From Actinomycetota bacterium (GTDB lineage: Bacteria > Actinomycetota > Humimicrobiia > Humimicrobiales > Humimicrobiaceae): DNA of 21,831 nucleotides. Numbering within the stretch: the first letter of the stretch is position 1; each line of letters starts with the position of its first letter. The position numbers and the translations under genes are program-made. Positions 10,644 to 21,716 of the stretch are shown one piece after another. The notes below the pieces were generated by a model, which was given only the letters and a program-made list of their open reading frames with translations, was not told the origin of the DNA and did not search any database. The stretch spans positions 1 to 21,831 of the forward strand of contig JALHTA010000378.1 in the NCBI GenBank assembly GCA_022865545.1, given 5' to 3'.

Positions 10644-10895
10644 ATGGCCTTAAAAAAAACAACTCTTCTATTTGAAGAAGATGTATACCTTAAGCTAAAA
10701 GAAAGGGCAAAGAGAGAGAAAGCGTCTATCGGCGGACTGGTTAGGGAAGCTGTTGCGACTTTCTATGGTATAAAAACCAAAGAAGATAAATTTAAAGCTC
10801 TTGAAAACTTAAAATCTCTGAACCTTGCAATAGATGATCCTGAAAAAATAGAGAAAGAAATAATTAAGGGAGCATTAAATGACACAGAGGACTAA
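10644..10895 (+). CDS. Ribbon-helix-helix antitoxin (VapB-like)
   Basis: 83-residue antitoxin. The first 45 residues form a ribbon-helix-helix DNA-binding domain (KKTTLLFEEDVYLKLKERAK, then ASIGGLVREAVATFYG), and the remaining acidic/basic tail would wrap the toxin. AGGGAG precedes the ATG at normal spacing. It overlaps the PIN toxin gene by 17 nt, so translation is coupled. It would neutralise the toxin and autorepress through the 30-bp palindrome just upstream. Confidence 0.87.
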   Translation: MALKKTTLLFEEDVYLKLKERAKREKASIGGLVREAVATFYGIKTKEDKFKALENLKSLNLAIDDPEKIEKEIIKGALNDTED

Positions 10896-11298
10896 AGTCT
10901 TTATCGACTCAAATATCCCGATGTATGCTGCCGGTGGGGATCATCCCAATAAAGAACCATCAATTAAAATATTAGAATTGATCTCGAGGGGCGATATAAC
11001 AGGGATTACTTCTACAGAAGTCTTACAAGAAATACTGTACCGCTACCAGGCAATAAATTTATTAAAAAAGGGCCTGGAAGTCTTTGATAATTTTTCCAGT
11101 ATTATTGATGATGTATTGTCCATTAATCTTCAGATCATGAATCAAGCAAAAAAAATCCTTGAGGGTAAGCATAATAGTAATGTTTATCCCAGGGATGCAG
11201 TACATATTGCTACTATGGATCATTATGAGATAAGCTATATTGCTACACATGATAAACACTTTAAGAAGTTTAAGCATATAAGATATTTTAAACTGTAA
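10879..11298 (+). CDS. PIN-domain ribonuclease toxin (VapC-like)
   Basis: 139-residue PIN-domain toxin, expected to cut RNA (often tRNA or rRNA in this family) with Mg2+ held by acidic residues. The four acidic positions are present: Asp10 in FIDSNIPMY, Glu47 in TSTEVLQE, Asp106 in PRDAVHIA and Asp125 in ATHDKHF. It overlaps its antitoxin gene by 17 nt. The RNA target cannot be predicted. The gene is intact. Confidence 0.9.
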   Translation: MTQRTKVFIDSNIPMYAAGGDHPNKEPSIKILELISRGDITGITSTEVLQEILYRYQAINLLKKGLEVFDNFSSIIDDVLSINLQIMNQAKKILEGKHNSNVYPRDAVHIATMDHYEISYIATHDKHFKKFKHIRYFKL

Positions 11299-12891: not shown

Positions 12892-13116
12892 TTATAAATA
12901 TTTCTTAATATAATTAAGTTTCTTTTCATCAAATCTCATAACAGAACCAAAATCATGTGTTGAATATGGTATTAGTTCCAGATGCTATTTCTAAATATGT
13001 TCTTTTATTTCAGGTTCTGCCCATTCAACGGCCCTTCTGAAATGACATAAATAAGGTATCCCAGAAATAATCAGCTCAGGTCTCGCGTCGATGGCGAGAG
13101 GTCCAGTCTTAAGAGT
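12892..13116 (-). pseudogene. Decayed C-terminal gene fragment, unidentified
   Basis: One minus-strand frame of 75 codons reads like real protein (ARPELIISGIPYLCHFRRAV near the start, PYSTHDFGSVMRFDEKKLNY near the end) but is broken by two TAG codons at 12991-12993 and 12985-12987, three codons apart, and has no start. It ends with a TAA at 12892. This is best read as the remains of a lost gene. I could not place the family. It sits in the 364-bp gap between the DUF2779 and first DUF4143 ATPase genes; the rest of that gap is AT-rich, apart from the promoter of the ATPase gene. Confidence 0.45.
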
Positions 13117-13148
13117 TTACAATTTGGAAATATTTATTAATAATTAAA

Positions 13149-13201
13149 ATTTCCTTTACATAAGGAAATATATTTAATATAATTTCCTTATTATGAGGAA
13201 A
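13149..13201 (+). promoter_or_regulatory. Promoter and double inverted-repeat operator of the first DUF4143 ATPase gene
   Basis: TTTACA (13155-13160) and TATAAT (13178-13183) have 17-nt spacing, and the ATG comes 9 nt later, so the mRNA is probably leaderless. Inverted repeat 1 (ATTTCCTT at 13149-13156, AAGGAAAT at 13162-13169) overlaps the -35. Inverted repeat 2 (TTTCCT at 13183-13188, AGGAAA at 13196-13201) encloses a 7-nt loop that contains the ATG. The centres are 33 bp apart, about three helical turns. Confidence 0.7.
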
Positions 13202-14482
13202 GAAATAATAAAAACTCTAATAATAGATTTTCATGAAAAAGGTATACCTGCTGCAAAACCCAGGCTCTTAGAGATTCCTGTCAACTCGAAAAAGATAATT
13301 ACCTTAACAGGTGTACGCAGAGGTGGGAAGACCTATCAGTTATATAATGTGATCAATGAATTGATCAGAAAAAAAATCAATATAAAGAATTGCCTCTATT
13401 TTAATTTTGAGGATGAAAGAATAGATAAAAATACATTTGAACTAAATAGTATAATTGAATCTTATCAGGAGCTATATCCTGAAATAGACCTGGATAACTG
13501 TTACTTTTTATTTGATGAGATCCAGAATATAAACGGCTGGGAAAGATTCGTAAGAAGAGTATATGAACAGATCTCAGATAATGTATTTATAACTGGTTCT
13601 AATTCAAAACTTTTAAGCAAGGAGATATCGACCTCTTTAAGGGGCAGGAGCATAAACTATGAGATCTATCCTTTAAATTTTAAAGAATACTTAGATTTTA
13701 AAGATATAGAAATAAATTTAAATTCCACAAGATCAGTTTCAAAAATTATTAATGAATTTGAAAAGTTTTTATCCGGCGGAGGTTTTCCAGAACTTATTTT
13801 CATAGATGGAGAGATTAAAGACAGAGTCCTTCAAGAGTATTTTAATGTTATGATATTTAGGGATCTTATTGAAAGATATGAAATCACACAAACAGCCATT
13901 CTTAAATATTTTTGCAAAAGAGTAATAGGAAATAGTGCAAAGGAATTCAGTGTAAATAAGATCTATAATGAGATAAAATCCCAGAATTATAAAATAAGTA
14001 AAGATACAATATATGAATTCCAGGACTATATTGAATCCATATATCTGGCATTTTTTATACCAAAATATTTACCATCTGTTGTAAAACAGGAATTTTCAAG
14101 GAAAAAAGCCTATTCCATTGATAATGGCCTTGCCACCTCTGTTGATACCTTTTTTATAAGAAATAAAGGATCTGCTCTGGAGAATTTAGTGTTTTTGGAG
14201 CTTGTAAAATCTGGTAAAAATATTTTTTATTACCATGGTAATTACGAATGTGATTTCTTATTAATAGAAAACGAAAAAGTCAGTGAAGCTATTCAGGTTT
14301 GTTATAATATTAGTGACAGTGATACGAAAAAAAGGGAAGAACAAGGTCTTCTGAATGCATGCAATGAATATAAATTAAAGAGAGGATGGGTCCTTACTCT
14401 AAGCGATGAACAAAAATATACTATAGATGGAATTACTATTGAGATTATGCCAGCATATAAGTATTTTCTTTTAGATCATTAA
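13193..14482 (+). CDS. AAA ATPase with C-terminal DUF4143 domain (first copy), 429 aa
   Basis: Predicted ATPase of the AAA_14/DUF4143 group, common in accessory islands and without a known cellular role. Walker A is GVRRGGKT (40-47), Walker B is FLFDEIQN with Asp108-Glu109, the sensor is TGSNS (134-138) and an arginine pair in RGR (150-152) may serve as finger. The middle is helical with a probable winged-helix part (NKIYNEIKSQNYKISKDTIY). The C-terminus has a PD-(D/E)XK-like fold with Glu330 and Asp354, but the usual E-x-K is Gln368-Val-Cys370, so nuclease catalysis is doubtful; this variant also occurs in related proteins. No Shine-Dalgarno is present and a -10 box lies 9 nt before the ATG. 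It is not closely similar to the second copy at 15433. Confidence 0.88.
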   Translation: MRKEIIKTLIIDFHEKGIPAAKPRLLEIPVNSKKIITLTGVRRGGKTYQLYNVINELIRKKINIKNCLYFNFEDERIDKNTFELNSIIESYQELYPEIDLDNCYFLFDEIQNINGWERFVRRVYEQISDNVFITGSNSKLLSKEISTSLRGRSINYEIYPLNFKEYLDFKDIEINLNSTRSVSKIINEFEKFLSGGGFPELIFIDGEIKDRVLQEYFNVMIFRDLIERYEITQTAILKYFCKRVIGNSAKEFSVNKIYNEIKSQNYKISKDTIYEFQDYIESIYLAFFIPKYLPSVVKQEFSRKKAYSIDNGLATSVDTFFIRNKGSALENLVFLELVKSGKNIFYYHGNYECDFLLIENEKVSEAIQVCYNISDSDTKKREEQGLLNACNEYKLKRGWVLTLSDEQKYTIDGITIEIMPAYKYFLLDH

Positions 14483-14592
14483 AGTATTAAATATTTTTGT
14501 TATTTTTATTTTTACTTCTGTTCCATCCATAGGGTCTTTAAAAGGCAAAACTCCTAAAGTTTTTGCTTTATCTCATAAAGATTTAAAAATTT

Positions 14593-14991
14593 TTAATTCA
14601 TTATAAGAAAAAGCCCTCGGACCTTCTTGAAATGCTTATCCATTGTAAAGAGTTTAGTTCCGTGCTGTAAAGCAAGCGCAGCGATCCAGAGATCATTTGT
14701 CGGAATAGGATCCCCGGACCTTTTTAATTCATCATATATTTTTGCATAGAATTCTGATGTCTCACTGTCTATATCATAAATAACGACTCTTGGAGAATAT
14801 ATAAACTGGTCAAGTTCCTCAAGGTTTTCTTTTTCCCTGCCACCATTTTTAAAACCTGACAAGAGCTCAGCGATAGAGATCACACTGAATGCAATAATAT
14901 CAGGTTTTTTTAAAAGATTTGCCACAGATCGGTTTCCGCGCAATAATTCACTATAAATATTTGTATCTATCAAGACTCTTTTTATTTCCAT
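14593..14991 (-). CDS. PIN-domain ribonuclease toxin (VapC-like), second system
   Basis: 132-residue PIN toxin with all acidic ligands: Asp9 in LIDTNIYSEL, Glu42 in SIAELLSG, Asp100 in TNDLWIAA and Asp118 in TMDKHF. The GDPIPTNDLWIAALA block is very typical of VapC/FitB proteins. It overlaps its antitoxin gene by 10 nt on the minus strand. The predicted action is cutting a specific RNA when freed from antitoxin. The 110 bp downstream of it, up to the convergent ATPase gene, holds only a 33-codon open stretch without a start. Confidence 0.92.
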   Translation of the reverse strand: MEIKRVLIDTNIYSELLRGNRSVANLLKKPDIIAFSVISIAELLSGFKNGGREKENLEELDQFIYSPRVVIYDIDSETSEFYAKIYDELKRSGDPIPTNDLWIAALALQHGTKLFTMDKHFKKVRGLFLIMN

Positions 14992-15242
14992 AATTCTTTA
15001 TCGATTTTTCGCTGGTCTTTGATTTCTTGTGTTATTAAATAATACTGTTCTTCATTCCATTTGCCTGAAAAGCTATCAAGGTCTGTAAATCTTTTTTTCT
15101 TTTTTATTTGCTCTTTAAAACCAAGTTCACTCCTTAAAACTGACAGAACGTATTTATTAATACTCATTGAGTTCAAGCCTGCCTGCTTTTTTATTTCCTT
15201 GTATAAATTATCTTCAAGACTCCTTAATAAAAATGTCTTCAT
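14982..15242 (-). CDS. Antitoxin of the second VapBC/FitAB-type system
   Basis: 86-residue antitoxin. I start it at the ATG at 15242 (GGGAG 5 nt before it) rather than at an upstream TTG at 15254. Residues 1-40 fit a ribbon-helix-helix domain of the FitA/Arc kind (LLRSLEDNLYKEIKKQAG, then MSINKYVLSVLRSELG). The basic and aromatic tail ends in ELWK. It overlaps the toxin gene, and two matching palindromes in its upstream region are the likely operator. Confidence 0.82.
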   Translation of the reverse strand: MKTFLLRSLEDNLYKEIKKQAGLNSMSINKYVLSVLRSELGFKEQIKKKKRFTDLDSFSGKWNEEQYYLITQEIKDQRKIDKELWK

Positions 15243-15292
15243 TATTACTCCCAAATTATTTTAAACTAAGTAGATATTATATAGAATTATAA

Positions 15293-15328
15293 TATGATAT
15301 CATAAATAATACTATATAATGATATCAT
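15293..15328. promoter_or_regulatory. Twin palindromic operator of the second VapBC system
   Basis: TATGATATCATA at 15293-15304 and ATGATATCAT at 15319-15328 are both perfect palindromes with the same ATGATATCAT core. Their centres are 25 bp apart. They lie 51-86 bp upstream of the antitoxin ATG, and a minus-strand TATAAT (complement at 15286-15291) sits between them and the gene. Two identical sites fit a toxin-antitoxin complex that bridges two operators. Confidence 0.7.
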
Positions 15329-15387
15329 ATAATCATTTTTATAAAAAAAGCAAATAGAAATATTAGATTAATGATAATATAAAAATA

Positions 15388-15442
15388 GTAAAATGGAATT
15401 GTAAATTCCATTTTTTAGTGTAAAATGGAAGCATGTATTCCA
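15388..15442 (+). promoter_or_regulatory. Promoter and double inverted-repeat operator of the second DUF4143 ATPase gene
   Basis: TTGTAA (15399-15404) and TAAAAT (15421-15426) are spaced 16 nt, with the ATG 6 nt after the -10. Inverted repeat 1 has 11-bp perfect arms (AAAATGGAATT at 15390-15400 and its complement at 15404-15414) around the -35. Inverted repeat 2 (TGGAA at 15426-15430, TTCCA at 15438-15442) has a 7-nt loop containing the ATG. GTAAAATGGAA occurs at 15388 and again at 15420. The centres are 32 bp apart. Confidence 0.7.
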
Positions 15443-16566
15443 GAATAATAAAAATACCAAAAAATAAAAGCTTCTTTCTTTTTGGCCCCAGAGGAACAGG
15501 TAAGACGACATGGGTCAAAAAGAATTTTACAGATGCCATATATATTGATCTCCTGGAGTCGCGTCTATTTAATGATCTGCTCGCTGATCCCCAGAGGATA
15601 GAAGATTTCATACCAGAAGATTTTAACGATTGGATCATTATTGATGAAGTCCAAAAAATACCACTGATCCTAAATGAAGTGCATAGGCTAATAGAAAGTA
15701 AGGGATACAAATTTATTTTGACAGGTTCAAGTGCAAGGAAAATAAGAAGAAAAGGTCAAAATCTTTTAGCCGGAAGAGCGCTTACATGCTCTATGTATCC
15801 ACTGACTGTAGAAGAGCTAGGCAAAGATTTTAATCTTGAGCACTCATTAAAATATGGCAATCTTCCTTCTGTTTATATGGAAGAAGACCAACAGGCATTC
15901 CTTGAAAGTTATATAGAGACCTATTTGCAGGAAGAAGTCCGTCAGGAAGGACTCACAAGAAACCTTGGCGCGTTTGCACGATTTCTTGAAGCAGCAAGTT
16001 TTTCCCAGGGATCCATATTAAATATTTCCGAGGTCGCAAGAGAGTGTTCGGTGGAAAGAAAAATAGTTGAAAATTATTTCAGTATCCTGGAAGATCTATT
16101 GGTAGGGTTCCGTATCCCTGTTTTTAACAAAAAGGCCAAAAGGAGGATGGCCAGGCACCCAAAATTTTATTTCTTCGATGTTGGAGTCTACAGGACCATA
16201 AGACCCATGGGCCCCCTTGATTCTCCTGAAGAAGCCGAAGGGATAATATTTGAAAGCCTTTTTTTACAGGAACTCAGGGCTCTAAATGATTATTATGGTC
16301 TGGGATATAATATATATTACTGGAGAACAGCCGGCGGGCTTGAAGTAGATTTTATCCTTTACGGCAAAAGAGGGATAAAAGCATTTGAAATAAAGCGCCG
16401 AAACAGGGTTGCGGCCGGCGCTCTGTCAGGGCTTAAAGCTTTTTTAAAGGATTATTCATCTGCACAGGTATTTTTTATTTATGGGGGTAAAAAAACATTA
16501 TATATTGATGGCATCAAAATAATTCCCATAGACAAGGCTATTAGAGATCTAAAAGAAATACTTTAA
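15433..16566 (+). CDS. AAA ATPase with C-terminal DUF4143 domain (second copy), 377 aa
   Basis: Predicted ATPase of the AAA_14/DUF4143 group. Walker A is GPRGTGKT (18-25), Walker B is WIIIDEVQ with Asp71-Glu72, the sensor is LTGSSARKI (96-104) and an arginine near 115 follows in LLAGRA. The middle holds the helical DUF4143 core (YIETYLQEEVRQEGLTRNLG, and SEVARECSVERKIVENYFSIL as a winged helix). The C-terminus keeps a complete PD-(D/E)XK set: Glu274, Asp306 in EVDF and Glu319-x-Lys321 in FEIKR, so nuclease activity is possible here, unlike in the first copy. Possible leaderless start. It is transcribed divergently from the second VapBC operon, with 190 bp between their start codons. Confidence 0.9.
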   Translation: MYSRIIKIPKNKSFFLFGPRGTGKTTWVKKNFTDAIYIDLLESRLFNDLLADPQRIEDFIPEDFNDWIIIDEVQKIPLILNEVHRLIESKGYKFILTGSSARKIRRKGQNLLAGRALTCSMYPLTVEELGKDFNLEHSLKYGNLPSVYMEEDQQAFLESYIETYLQEEVRQEGLTRNLGAFARFLEAASFSQGSILNISEVARECSVERKIVENYFSILEDLLVGFRIPVFNKKAKRRMARHPKFYFFDVGVYRTIRPMGPLDSPEEAEGIIFESLFLQELRALNDYYGLGYNIYYWRTAGGLEVDFILYGKRGIKAFEIKRRNRVAAGALSGLKAFLKDYSSAQVFFIYGGKKTLYIDGIKIIPIDKAIRDLKEIL

Positions 16567-16577
16567 TGAGATTTTTC

Positions 16578-16787
16578 CTACCCCACCTTTATAACTGCCT
16601 TTACTACATCAGAAGGATTGGCTATTACAAAATCAAAAGCCTTTTTTGTGTCCTCAAAATCAAATGTGTGGGTCACTATATCTTTTATTTTAATAGCTCC
16701 GCTTGCTATGGCTTCAATTGCTACCGGGTATTTATTTCTATATCTAAATACCGTTGCAAGTGAGGCTTCCCTTACAAGTAGCTTCAT
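16578..16787 (-). pseudogene. C-terminal remnant of a zinc-type alcohol/polyol dehydrogenase
   Basis: About 70 codons reading FRYRNKYPVAIEAIASGAIK, then DIVTHTFDFEDTKKAFDFV and PSDVVKAVIKVG. This is the typical end of a medium-chain dehydrogenase (sorbitol, threonine or alcohol dehydrogenase group), whose full length is about 345 residues. The catalytic zinc and NAD-binding domains are absent, and upstream bases on the minus strand show no continuation. No ribosome site precedes the internal ATG. It ends 12 bp from the convergent second DUF4143 gene, which suggests that insertion of the neighbouring modules cut it off. Confidence 0.75.
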
Positions 16788-16832: not shown

Positions 16833-16868
16833 ACAATATAAATTATATTGTGATATATACAATAATAA
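16833..16868. promoter_or_regulatory. Inverted repeats upstream of the PemIK-type operon
   Basis: ACAATATA (16833-16840) and TATATTGT (16844-16851) form a perfect 8-bp inverted repeat with a 3-nt centre, and a further ACAAT follows at about 16859. A TATAAA at 16885-16890 is the best -10 for the antitoxin gene. The repeat lies 56 to 74 bp before the ATG, so it is a plausible autoregulatory site, though AT-rich sequence makes chance repeats common. Confidence 0.45.
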
Positions 16869-16906
16869 TTTATAATAATAATAATATAAATAATCGATCT
16901 TTAACA

Positions 16907-17179
16907 ATGAAAGAAAAATTAAAAAATACCACATTTTCGCTGCCGGTCAAATCAATTGAAAATCTGAAAGAGGCAGTTAAAGAAGGATATGCAAAATCAC
17001 TTAATTCGGCTGTCAGGGAAGCAGTAGAGCTTTACACAGCAAAAGTAAGCAAAGAAGCATTAAAAAAGGAAATGGAAGCTGCATCAAGGGATCCATTATT
17101 TCTAAAGGATACAAAGGAATTAATGGATGATTTTAAGACTTCTGATAAAGAAACAGCTGAATTAATAACTGATTGGTAA
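16907..17179 (+). CDS. Antitoxin of a PemIK/MazEF-type system
   Basis: 90-residue antitoxin. I start at the ATG at 16907 rather than at an in-frame GTG at 16850, because the extra residues would be an Asn/Ile-rich translation of AT-repeat DNA. The N-terminal part (TTFSLPVKSIENLKEAVKEG, then AKSLNSAVREAVELYTAKV) fits a ribbon-helix-helix domain. The tail (about 50-90) is charged and ends in ELITDW, probably the toxin-binding part. It has no clear Shine-Dalgarno site. The toxin gene follows after 15 nt. Confidence 0.8.
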   Translation: MKEKLKNTTFSLPVKSIENLKEAVKEGYAKSLNSAVREAVELYTAKVSKEALKKEMEAASRDPLFLKDTKELMDDFKTSDKETAELITDW

Positions 17180-17194
17180 ATATGGAGAGTTCTA

Positions 17195-17545
17195 ATGTAT
17201 GAGTATCAGTGGAATATATTCTGGGCCGAGCTTGATCCGGTCAGGGATTCAGAGCAATCTGGTAAAAGACCTGTTATTGTTATATCTTCCGAAGCTATAA
17301 ACTCAAGTCTTCCCATTGTTGGAGTATTGCCCCTGACTTCTATGAAGAAAGGTAGAAAGATATACTCCACAGAAGTTTTTTTATCCAGGAAAGAGACTGG
17401 ACTTGAGAAGGATTCGATATCAATGTCACACCAGGTAAGAGCATTATCAAAAAACAGGCTTGGAGAAAAATGTGGTGAGATAAGGTCTTCTGAAATAATG
17501 GAAAGAATACATCAATCAATCAGGGTATTTCTGGATATAGAATAG
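17195..17545 (+). CDS. MazF/PemK-type endoribonuclease toxin
   Basis: 116-residue toxin of the MazF/PemK/CcdB fold, expected to cut mRNA at short motifs. Family features are the N-terminal FWAELDPVRDSEQSGKRPV block with catalytic-type Arg25, VISSEAINSS, Thr48 in VLPLTS and the SMSHQVRALSKNRLG block (76-90). GGAGAG precedes the ATG at good spacing. The 15-nt gap from the antitoxin gene shows an operon. The cleavage sequence cannot be predicted. Confidence 0.93.
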   Translation: MYEYQWNIFWAELDPVRDSEQSGKRPVIVISSEAINSSLPIVGVLPLTSMKKGRKIYSTEVFLSRKETGLEKDSISMSHQVRALSKNRLGEKCGEIRSSEIMERIHQSIRVFLDIE

Positions 17546-17629: not shown

Positions 17630-17893
17630 ATGGAAACAAAGAAAAGAACACATGTGGTGGTACCTGAAGAATTAATAAGGGAAGTGGACAGACTCTCAGG
17701 TAAAAGAAAACGGAGCCAATTTATCACCCGGGCAATAAAGAGGGAAATTCAGAGGCTAAACTATATAATGGCCGTAAAGGAAACAACCGGAGCCTGGGAG
17801 GAAAAAGATCACCCTGAACTAAAGGACGGATCCGAAAGCTGGGTAAGGAAGCTAAGGGATGAAGATAAAAAAAGACTAAAAGATTTTAAATAA
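17630..17893 (+). CDS. Ribbon-helix-helix antitoxin of the third VapBC pair
   Basis: 87-residue antitoxin. Residues 5-45 form the ribbon-helix-helix part (RTHVVVPEELIREVDRLSG, then KRSQFITRAIKREIQRL), and the tail includes ETTGAWEEKDHPEL and the tryptophans common in VapB toxin-wrapping segments. No Shine-Dalgarno site is seen; a weak -10 lies 7 nt before the ATG. Its TAA shares one base with the toxin ATG (TAATG). Confidence 0.87.
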   Translation: METKKRTHVVVPEELIREVDRLSGKRKRSQFITRAIKREIQRLNYIMAVKETTGAWEEKDHPELKDGSESWVRKLRDEDKKRLKDFK

Positions 17894-18276
17894 TGACAGA
17901 ATATCTCCTGGACACTACTATAATAATTGATCACCTGAGGGGCGATAAAAAGGTGAACTCCTATCTTGAAAAAATCGGGCAGCGAGGTGATATTGCCGGA
18001 TGCTGTTGTATTAATATAGCAGAGATATATTCTGGTATGCTGGAAAAAGAAGCAGAGAAGACAGACAGATTTATTAACAGTCTATACTATTATGAAGTTA
18101 CCCGGGAGATTTCGAAGGTGGCAGGCAAGCTAAGGCAGAAGTATCAGAAAAAGGGCAAAACTCTTGCAACCACAGATATAATTATTGGAGCTGCCGCTCT
18201 TATATATGATCTAATACTTGTAACTAAGAATATAAAGCATTATCCTTTTCCAGAACTTGAGATGAAGGAGATATAG
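17893..18276 (+). CDS. PIN-domain ribonuclease toxin (VapC-like), third system
   Basis: 127-residue PIN toxin with Asp7 in LLDTTIIIDHLRG, Glu44 in NIAEIYSGM and Asp95 in ATTDIIIGAAAL. The fourth position is Asn113 in VTKNIKHYPF, as is usual for this VapC subgroup, so it is not a defect. One-base overlap with the antitoxin gene gives coupled translation. It is followed 16 nt later by the DUF6062 gene on the same strand. Confidence 0.92.
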   Translation: MTEYLLDTTIIIDHLRGDKKVNSYLEKIGQRGDIAGCCCINIAEIYSGMLEKEAEKTDRFINSLYYYEVTREISKVAGKLRQKYQKKGKTLATTDIIIGAAALIYDLILVTKNIKHYPFPELEMKEI

Positions 18277-20544: not shown

Positions 20545-21639
20545 ATGGCTAACATATCACTTAGAAACATCACCAAGTATTATGGCAATAACCTTATCCT
20601 GGATAAGATCTCACTGGACATAAAAGACTGAGAATTTTTCTGCATAACAGGTCCCTCAGGATGCGGCAAGACCACGCTTCTCAGGATCATTGCAGGTCTA
20701 GATAATGACTATGGCGGGAAGGTATTTTTTGATGGAGAGGATGCCACCAGTTTAAGCTCTGCCAAGAGAAACATAGCCATGGTATTTCAGGACTATGCGC
20801 TTTATCCCAATATGGTGGCCAGGGAGAATATAGTTTTTCCTTTAAGGATAAGAAAATACAGCCAGGAAAGACTCACAACTAAACTTGACACTACTGTCAA
20901 ACAGATAGATATTGGTGTAGATAAATACCTGGATTATCTGCCGAGACAGCTTTCTGCAGGACATCAGCAGAGAGTAGCGACAGGAAGGGCAATAATCAGG
21001 GATGATCCCAGGGTGTTCCTTCTTGATGAGCCACTTACGAACCTGGACGCCAAAATAAGGATGAATACCAGGACATATCTAAAAAAGCTGGTAACAGACA
21101 TTAAGTCTACTACTATCTATGTAACTGCGGACAGCAATGAGGCACTGGCCCTTGCGGACAGGCTGGCAGTACTTGATGAGGGAAGATTTGTACAGGTGGA
21201 CAGGCCCTTTGATATGTATTTTCATCCAAAGACAATGCTGGTGGCTGATTTCTTTGGAACCCTTGGGATGAATTTTCTTGAAGGTATGGTCATGGATGGA
21301 AGATTTATTTTTGAAGATAAAAAGCTTGGAGTACCTGCATATATTGATAAAGAGACAATAGATGACCTTGATGGCAAAAAAGTAATTCTGGGTATAAGAC
21401 CCGAGGATGTGGCCTTTTCAAAAGAGCCATCCCGTGAAAGCATCAAAGTAGAAGTTCAGCTGATCCAGACCTTTCCGCCAAAGGCAAATATGATCTGTAC
21501 TTTTAAGGAAAAAACAATAAATGTAGTTGCATTCATAAAAAATACCAGGGGAATAAAACCTGGAGGCAGCATCTATTTTGATATAGCGGGATCCAATACC
21601 CATCTATTTGATCCTGAAACCAGGGAAGCCATAATTTGA
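20545..21639 (+). pseudogene. UgpC/MalK-type sugar ABC transporter ATPase interrupted by an in-frame TGA
   Basis: Full-length frame of 364 sense-or-stop codons for the ATPase of a carbohydrate importer, broken only by a TGA at 20629-20631 (codon 29), where the family normally has Gly (GGA to TGA is one base). The ribosome site AGGGGGTG and the ATG are intact. After the stop, the reading frame is open to the end. Walker A is GPSGCGKTT (36-44), the Q-loop is in VFQDYALYPN, Walker B is FLLDEP with Asp161-Glu162, and a C-terminal TOBE-like region (IRPEDV, HLFDPETRE) follows. The signature reads LSAGHQQR (136-143) instead of LSGGQQQR, and the H-loop has Ala195 (VTADSNEA) where His is expected. Either it is a decaying gene or a non-standard product is made. 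Permeases are absent nearby. Confidence 0.85.
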
Positions 21640-21716
21640 TGGTGGGCGATATTGGATTTGAACCAATGACCTCTGCGATGTCGACGCAGCACTCTAACCA
21701 GCTGAGCTAATCGCCC
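21640..21716 (-). tRNA. tRNA-Val (anticodon GAC)
   Basis: Complete minus-strand cloverleaf: acceptor GGGCGAT/ATCGCCC (7 bp), D arm GCTC...GAGT-type, anticodon stem CTGCG/CGCAG with loop TCGACAT giving anticodon GAC, and T arm ATTGG-TTCAAAT-CCAAT. The discriminator is A and the CCA end is encoded. GAC reads valine GUC and GUU codons. Its 3' end directly abuts the stop of the convergent ABC gene. The intact gene shows no attachment-site duplication in the window. Confidence 0.97.

Follow-up and report, generated by a model that had tools for sequence, protein, structure and literature searches.

In the window analysed here, the 21,831-nucleotide stretch at positions 1 to 21,831 of contig JALHTA010000378.1 (assembly GCA_022865545.1, an Actinomycetota bacterium of the family Humimicrobiaceae), two genes that we call A and B each encode an ATPase with an AAA_14 and a DUF4143 domain, and each has two palindromes at its start: one centred on the -35 hexamer of a promoter-like sequence (O1) and one spanning the ATG (O2). 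On the sequences and a structural model we consider it probable that each DUF4143 gene of this kind forms a one-gene self-repressing unit, and that the sites are operators, most likely of the ATPase itself. Family membership is clear for both proteins: A scores 122.9 bits for AAA_14 (PF13173) and 59.1 bits for DUF4143 (PF13635), and B 85.4 and 106.4 bits, all above the Pfam curated cut-offs (27 bits for AAA_14, 28.1 bits for DUF4143). NCBIfam holds no matching model for A or B. A sequence-only reading of this DNA had called such ATPases usually annotated only as DUF4143, which was incomplete, as PADLOC lists the family as PDC-S01, with models that match A at E = 4.3e-103 and B at E = 3.2e-52.

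That reading had also described two genes of one ATPase family sharing an upstream design in different sequences, with a first repeat on the -35, a second 32–33 bp downstream just behind the -10, half-sites private to each gene, and an ATG 6–9 nt from the -10; the coordinates and distances were borne out (Table 1). The O1 and O2 centres are 33 bp apart in A and 32 bp apart in B, the ATG follows the end of the -10 by 9 and 6 nt, respectively, and the half-sites are unlike (TTTCCTT in A, TGGAATT in B). In both genes the left arm of O2 has as its first base the final base of the -10. In A the 7-nt loop of O2, TATTATG, holds the ATG at 13193. The position of the -10 predicts leaderless transcription. 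The hexamers of A are the best among 17 promoter-like sites in 12900–16700, a total that is itself at shuffle level (mean 17.7). Tested as pairs with a common half-site, the palindromes of A and of B are each beyond chance at p = 0.005, the floor for 200 shuffles; the best palindrome taken alone is significant in B (p = 0.01) and not in A (p = 0.16).

Table 1. Coordinates of genes A and B, their predicted control sites and other mapped features of the window
Feature	Position	Strand	Basis
Gene A, AAA_14 + DUF4143 ATPase, 429 aa, PADLOC PDC-S01	13193..14482	+	ORF, Pfam, PADLOC
Operator O1 of gene A (predicted), TTTCCTT-TACAT-AAGGAAA, centre 13159, centred on -35	13150..13168	.	Palindrome, pair p = 0.005
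Promoter-like hexamers of gene A, TTTACA (13155-13160)-17-TATAAT (13178-13183)	13155..13183	+	11/12 bases
Operator O2 of gene A (predicted), TTTCCTT-ATTAT-GAGGAAA, centre 13192, spans ATG	13183..13201	.	Palindrome, pair p = 0.005
Gene B, AAA_14 + DUF4143 ATPase, 377 aa, PADLOC PDC-S01	15433..16566	+	ORF, Pfam, PADLOC
Operator O1 of gene B (predicted), core TGGAATT-GTA-AATTCCA 15394-15410, centre 15402, centred on -35	15390..15414 (arms)	.	Palindrome, pair p = 0.005, consensus of 78 orthologues
Promoter-like hexamers of gene B, TTGTAA (15399-15404)-16-TAAAAT (15421-15426)	15399..15426	+	9/12 bases; TTGACA in orthologue consensus
Operator O2 of gene B (predicted), TGGAA-GCATGTA-TTCCA, centre 15434, spans ATG	15426..15442	.	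Palindrome, pair p = 0.005, base -3/codon 2 covariation
Predicted winged helix of B (residues 178-247) with putative recognition helix at 209-221	15964..16173	+	AlphaFold2 model
tRNA-Val(gac), at window end	21640-21716	-	Rfam

Conservation around B carries much of the argument. A scan of named genomes gave 80 of 513 confirmed B orthologues; these 80 have 54–84% identity and come from many bacterial groups. We aligned 78 sequences, namely 74 of the 80 scanned loci plus four home-phylum genes including B itself; L290, L307, L308, L315, L323 and L326 were left out (start or upstream DNA missing, or an aligned first codon other than ATG or GTG). Their consensus contains both palindromes, TGGANTT-GAC-AAYTCCA centred on -31 and TGGARTT-ATG-TAYTCCA centred on +1, with a -35 of TTGACA inside the first and a -10 of TAAAAT ending in the second. 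Base -3, left of the ATG, covaries with a silent position, the third base of codon 2 (+5) (odds ratio 8.2, p = 5e-4, although p values among these orthologues overstate independence because the sequences are related): the combinations were A-T in 31, A-C in 4, G-T in 16 and G-C in 17, making 68 of the 78 rows. Use of TAC elsewhere in the orthologues is the same for both base -3 groups (0.33). The next codons are similarly biased, with Ser3 written TCC in 39 of 43 cases (247 of 1475 Ser codons elsewhere) and Arg4 written AGA in 59 of 74 (407 of 2059 elsewhere). No flanking frame within about 1.2 kb is common to more than three of the 80 B loci. The likeness to toxin–antitoxin systems proposed in the sequence-only reading is thus limited to control logic and does not extend to a second gene, since none is conserved beside B.

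Seven A-type genes share at least 52% identity, the window's A included, and six of them have the operator pair. Five of these belong to the window's family; the sixth, L441 (52%), comes from a genome in the phylum of a Roizmanbacteria record. Across the six, the 50 bp ahead of O1 have a mean pairwise identity of 0.34; the value is 0.93 for O1 (partly by construction, because the genes were picked by the O1 pattern), 0.67 between the sites, 0.82 for O2 and 0.62 for the stretch that follows. O2 played no part in the choice, except for an ATGA nearby. The O1–O2 distance is fixed at 33 bp, and from the first base of O1 to the ATG it is 40, 43 or 57 bases. One gene, L239, retains O2 although its ATG is outside it, and the second site is therefore not a by-product of coding. 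Among the B orthologues, the ATG shifts within the second site or leaves it in L281 and L316, for example. Placement of the ATG in the loop of the second repeat accordingly describes A and B but is not a general design, given the shifted or lost ATGs of L239, L441, L281 and L316. Farther relatives of A include L442 (39%), which has no operator within 100 bp upstream of its start, and L443 (34%), on a contig of a viral collection (IMG/VR). In L238, the seventh of the A-type genes, the first 400 bases show an A frame that continues an unrelated frame upstream of it; the first residues are lost, through either an assembly join or a fusion.

DUF4143 genes are multi-copy and patchily distributed: the window's genome has six matches, and copies reach at least 20 per genome among the 61 genomes searched, a scan from which weak members are absent because it gave only higher-scoring matches. 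We surveyed the family at large, taking for each gene the best palindrome in the interval from -90 to +25 and comparing it with dinucleotide shuffles at p ≤ 0.05. The home set, from the window's genome and its relatives, was built from 100 regions plus the given loci, omitting short or cut frames, and its 144 distinct family frames were reduced to 123 by filters on score, Walker A, start codon and upstream DNA; 30 RecA and 27 AlbA_2 loci (29 and 19 usable) served as controls. A palindrome was significant in 45 of the 123 DUF4143 genes, compared with 3/29 RecA genes, 1/19 AlbA_2 genes and 8/78 neighbouring frames (pooled controls 12/126, p = 4e-7). In a second set, from 24 genomes chosen via B-bearing named loci (60 regions and 30 loci, 87 genes passing), the counts were 46/87 against 15/143 neighbouring frames (p = 4e-12), and 39/73 once the B orthologues were removed.

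Pairs, defined as two sites with one half-site and called at p ≤ 0.02, were less frequent. Twenty of the 123 home-set genes had one, 15 of them spaced 32 or 33 bp and two spaced 22 bp; controls had five among 126, none at 32–33 bp. The 15 came from five of the eight protein clusters having significant pairs, 11 of them from a single cluster, and their half-sites are unlike: TGGAAT, TTGGTA, ATTTCC, TTTCAT, TATTAC and AAATAG (the last weak). Of the 12 significant pairs among the 87 genes of the second set, six were at 32 bp, all B-type, and the others at 20, 21, 23, 23, 52 and 53 bp. With 15 and 6 such pairs in sets of 123 and 87 genes, the 32–33 bp pair is not a general trait. Many family members thus have palindromes close to the start, and the three-turn pair marks certain subfamilies only; the conserved spacing that the sequence-only reading expected in upstream alignments exists in the A-type and B-type genes and in clusters of the home phylum, but not family-wide. 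In the L034 group, inspected by eye, TTGACA is upstream of both sites and the pair is still 32 bp apart, an arrangement that links the spacing with the binder and not with the promoter. Other arrangements were also seen: L080 and L087 have a third site one further 32 bp step upstream, L281 has an array of three sites in 32 bp steps, and a third DUF4143 cluster (L105, L112 and, weakly, L106) has pairs 22 bp apart, which is two helical turns, not three.

As to what binds, the sequence-only reading had left the choice between the ATPase and a trans factor; the evidence favours the ATPase, and autoregulation still appears the likeliest use, given exact sites solely at the own gene, their retention across phyla and a predicted winged helix in B. 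In the 2.13 Mb genome (92% complete) the exact palindromes of A and of B each occur solely at O1 of their own gene. We rejected a wider regulon: near-matches with up to two mismatches numbered 25 and 19, compared with 20 and 20 in a reversed-pattern control (B's own O2, three positions off the pattern, is not in that list). An AlphaFold2 model of B (mean pLDDT 89.9, pTM 0.88), which replaced an earlier one that was poor in mid-chain (pLDDT 67.7), has helices at 178–189, 198–205 and 209–221 followed by strands at 225–228 and 244–247, an order that we read as a probable winged helix-turn-helix. Sequence searches found no solved-structure relative of the proteins, and the winged-helix fragment had one match in the PDB, at chance level (E 1.5). 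In its C-terminal part B has D306 and E319, both invariant, and K321, present in at least 90% (65 sequences), which we take to be a candidate PD-(D/E)XK motif; in A, D354 is nearly invariant and the motif looks incomplete because Q-V-C-Y stands where B has E-I-K, replacing E-x-K.

The first residue of the putative recognition helix, R209, varies with the operator. We compared 91 B orthologues (21 loci added, L437 and L440 lacking a start, duplicates removed). The TGGA/TCCA core as defined here was present in 67 of the 85 with R209, in none of the five with R209A (L322, L324, L329, L420 and L421) and not in the one with R209G. Four of the five R209A orthologues have a common half-site of their own, AAGTC(G/T)TTTT, whose mirror in L329, L420 and L421 is an A-run followed by GACT. 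The longer helix pattern ERK..E goes with the core too (core present/absent 48/3 with the pattern vs. 19/21 for the rest, p = 5e-7), an association confounded by divergence because A346, Y148 and others associate as well.

Several findings weigh against our interpretation. The five R209A orthologues sit together on the tree, and positions beyond the helix, such as A346 and Y148, are likewise associated with loss of the core, so the R209A link to the operator is a pointer, not proof. Whole half-sites H1–H4 are found in only 22, 37, 34 and 39 of the 78 B orthologues. Covariation between the two B palindromes is not significant (p = 0.19 and 0.41; within O1 p = 1), nor is covariation at core half-site positions, where double departures were complementary in 15/36, 14/37 and 13/38 cases with one third expected by chance. 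About half to two thirds of the family genes have no significant palindrome by the shuffle test, and L238, 63% identical to A, has no operator.

If our interpretation is right, the protein's own winged helix would bind both sites and block the promoter, closing it at the -35 and at the start; the bound form would be a dimer or higher oligomer whose units lie three turns from each other along the same face of the DNA, and by such self-repression the gene would set its own low level. With less assurance, we suppose that the nucleotide state of the AAA_14 domain sets the bound state, by analogy with RepA of Rhizobium, and that the promoter could be freed by ATP, by assembly or when foreign DNA captures the protein. 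A broader idea, which we put forward tentatively as possible though not the likelier case, is that the many members of the PDC-S01/DUF4143 family, ATPases with a nuclease-like domain, each repress their own gene and no other, every lineage having its own operator and recognition helix. The promoter would then act as the sensor: pulling the protein off, by ATP-driven assembly on invading DNA or by a phage factor, might both arm it and raise its expression, and divergence of the half-sites along with the helix could allow many copies per cell without cross-talk.

Other readers of the palindromes can be imagined. Small repressors dedicated to the task recognise many palindromic operators, and binding of the ATPase to its sites is a prediction, so that a separate regulator encoded elsewhere might control the ATPase gene. 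Against this, the half-sites of A and B differ within one genome and each tracks its own gene across phyla, and a separate regulator would therefore be needed for every subfamily; moreover, no neighbour is common to more than three of the 80 B loci, and the ATPase itself has a winged helix in the B model. We regard such a regulator as unlikely, though a distant gene might encode one. Alternatively, the palindromes might be working sites of the protein, for loading, partition or self-recognition, that fall in the promoter only by position. The three-site arrays of L080, L087 and L281 are what that explanation would lead one to expect, as are the sites of the L034 group, which are away from the promoter hexamers; yet the sites of A and B cover exactly the -35 and the start, and the exact sites occur once per genome, which suits a switch. 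It too strikes us as distinctly improbable.

Two further explanations fare worse. Because the second repeat flanks the ATG in A and B, it could form an RNA hairpin hiding the start codon, but a transcript from this promoter would not carry the complete hairpin, as the left arm begins on the last base of the -10; the site also stays in L239 while the ATG moves out, and Rfam has no family there. We rejected the hairpin on the position of its left arm and the survival of the site when the ATG moves, and now give it very little credence. The same scant credence goes to the view that the repeats mark the borders of a mobile unit or are chance structures in AT-rich sequence. The genes are indeed multi-copy and patchy, and in the window they are found among toxin–antitoxin genes, but chance is excluded at family level by the comparisons with shuffles and with control genes, and mobile-element ends were rejected after downstream copies reached p ≤ 0.05 in just 2 of 44 cases, not beyond chance.

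The surroundings of A and B in the window are rich in toxin–antitoxin-like genes. Between them, on the opposite strand, are a PIN-domain toxin-like gene and a small partner gene (14593–15254, minus strand, and 15285–15337), and upstream of the PIN-domain gene is a near-perfect inverted repeat of ATGATATCAT units. Further such pairs occupy 10644–11298, 16850–17545 and 17630–18276; Pfam places a PIN domain at 10879–11298 and a PemK/MazF-like domain at 17195–17545, and the product of 17893–18276 resembles a PIN protein by eye only. At 20629–21639, on the plus strand, an ABC-transporter-like ATPase frame has one TGA inside the frame of its PF01637 match, the listed ORF beginning past it at 20779. 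An Rfam scan of the window found a single tRNA and no RNA family at the A or B start sites.

The family matters because one survey ranked PDC-S01 fourth in abundance among the defence systems of all prokaryotes, counting 9,986 systems in archaea and 29,494 in bacteria, most such candidates being unvalidated (PMC12988326). A conserved private operator would offer a tangible way into its study, namely, for each protein, a DNA target predictable from sequence, and private operators could explain how many paralogues (six here) coexist in one genome. Among the papers listed by our searches of PMC, no title or abstract dealt with operators or regulation of the DUF4143/COG1373/PDC-S01 family. PDC-S01 is described as a candidate one-gene defence system in which an ATPase is joined to a PD-(D/E)XK-type domain; the part of that account used here describes no operator or regulation and does not validate defence activity (PMC12988326).

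Components of the proposed arrangement have parallels in other systems, each cited here from part of its source. One is rhizobial RepA, the ParA-family ATPase of repABC, a helix-turn-helix ATPase that acts as repressor of its own operon by way of imperfect palindromes, which are private to it and overlap the promoter, with no cross-reaction between paralogues and with own-operator binding that is specific with ADP (PMC4492784). It differs in belonging to a plasmid partition operon of three genes that includes RepB and parS, and in having a ParA fold in place of AAA_14 and DUF4143 and no nuclease-like domain (PMC4492784). The AbiEi antitoxin likewise is the product of a defence-linked gene that it represses through inverted repeats in the promoter, two sets of them in the case of Rv2827c, but AbiEi is part of a two-gene toxin–antitoxin system whose repressor is an antitoxin without an ATPase domain (PMC7319586). 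The archaeal Orc1-2 joins an AAA+ ATPase to a winged helix as a DNA-binding regulator, as we propose for B; it is of another AAA+ group and acts as a global DNA-damage regulator, and the likeness is one of description (PMC9738581).

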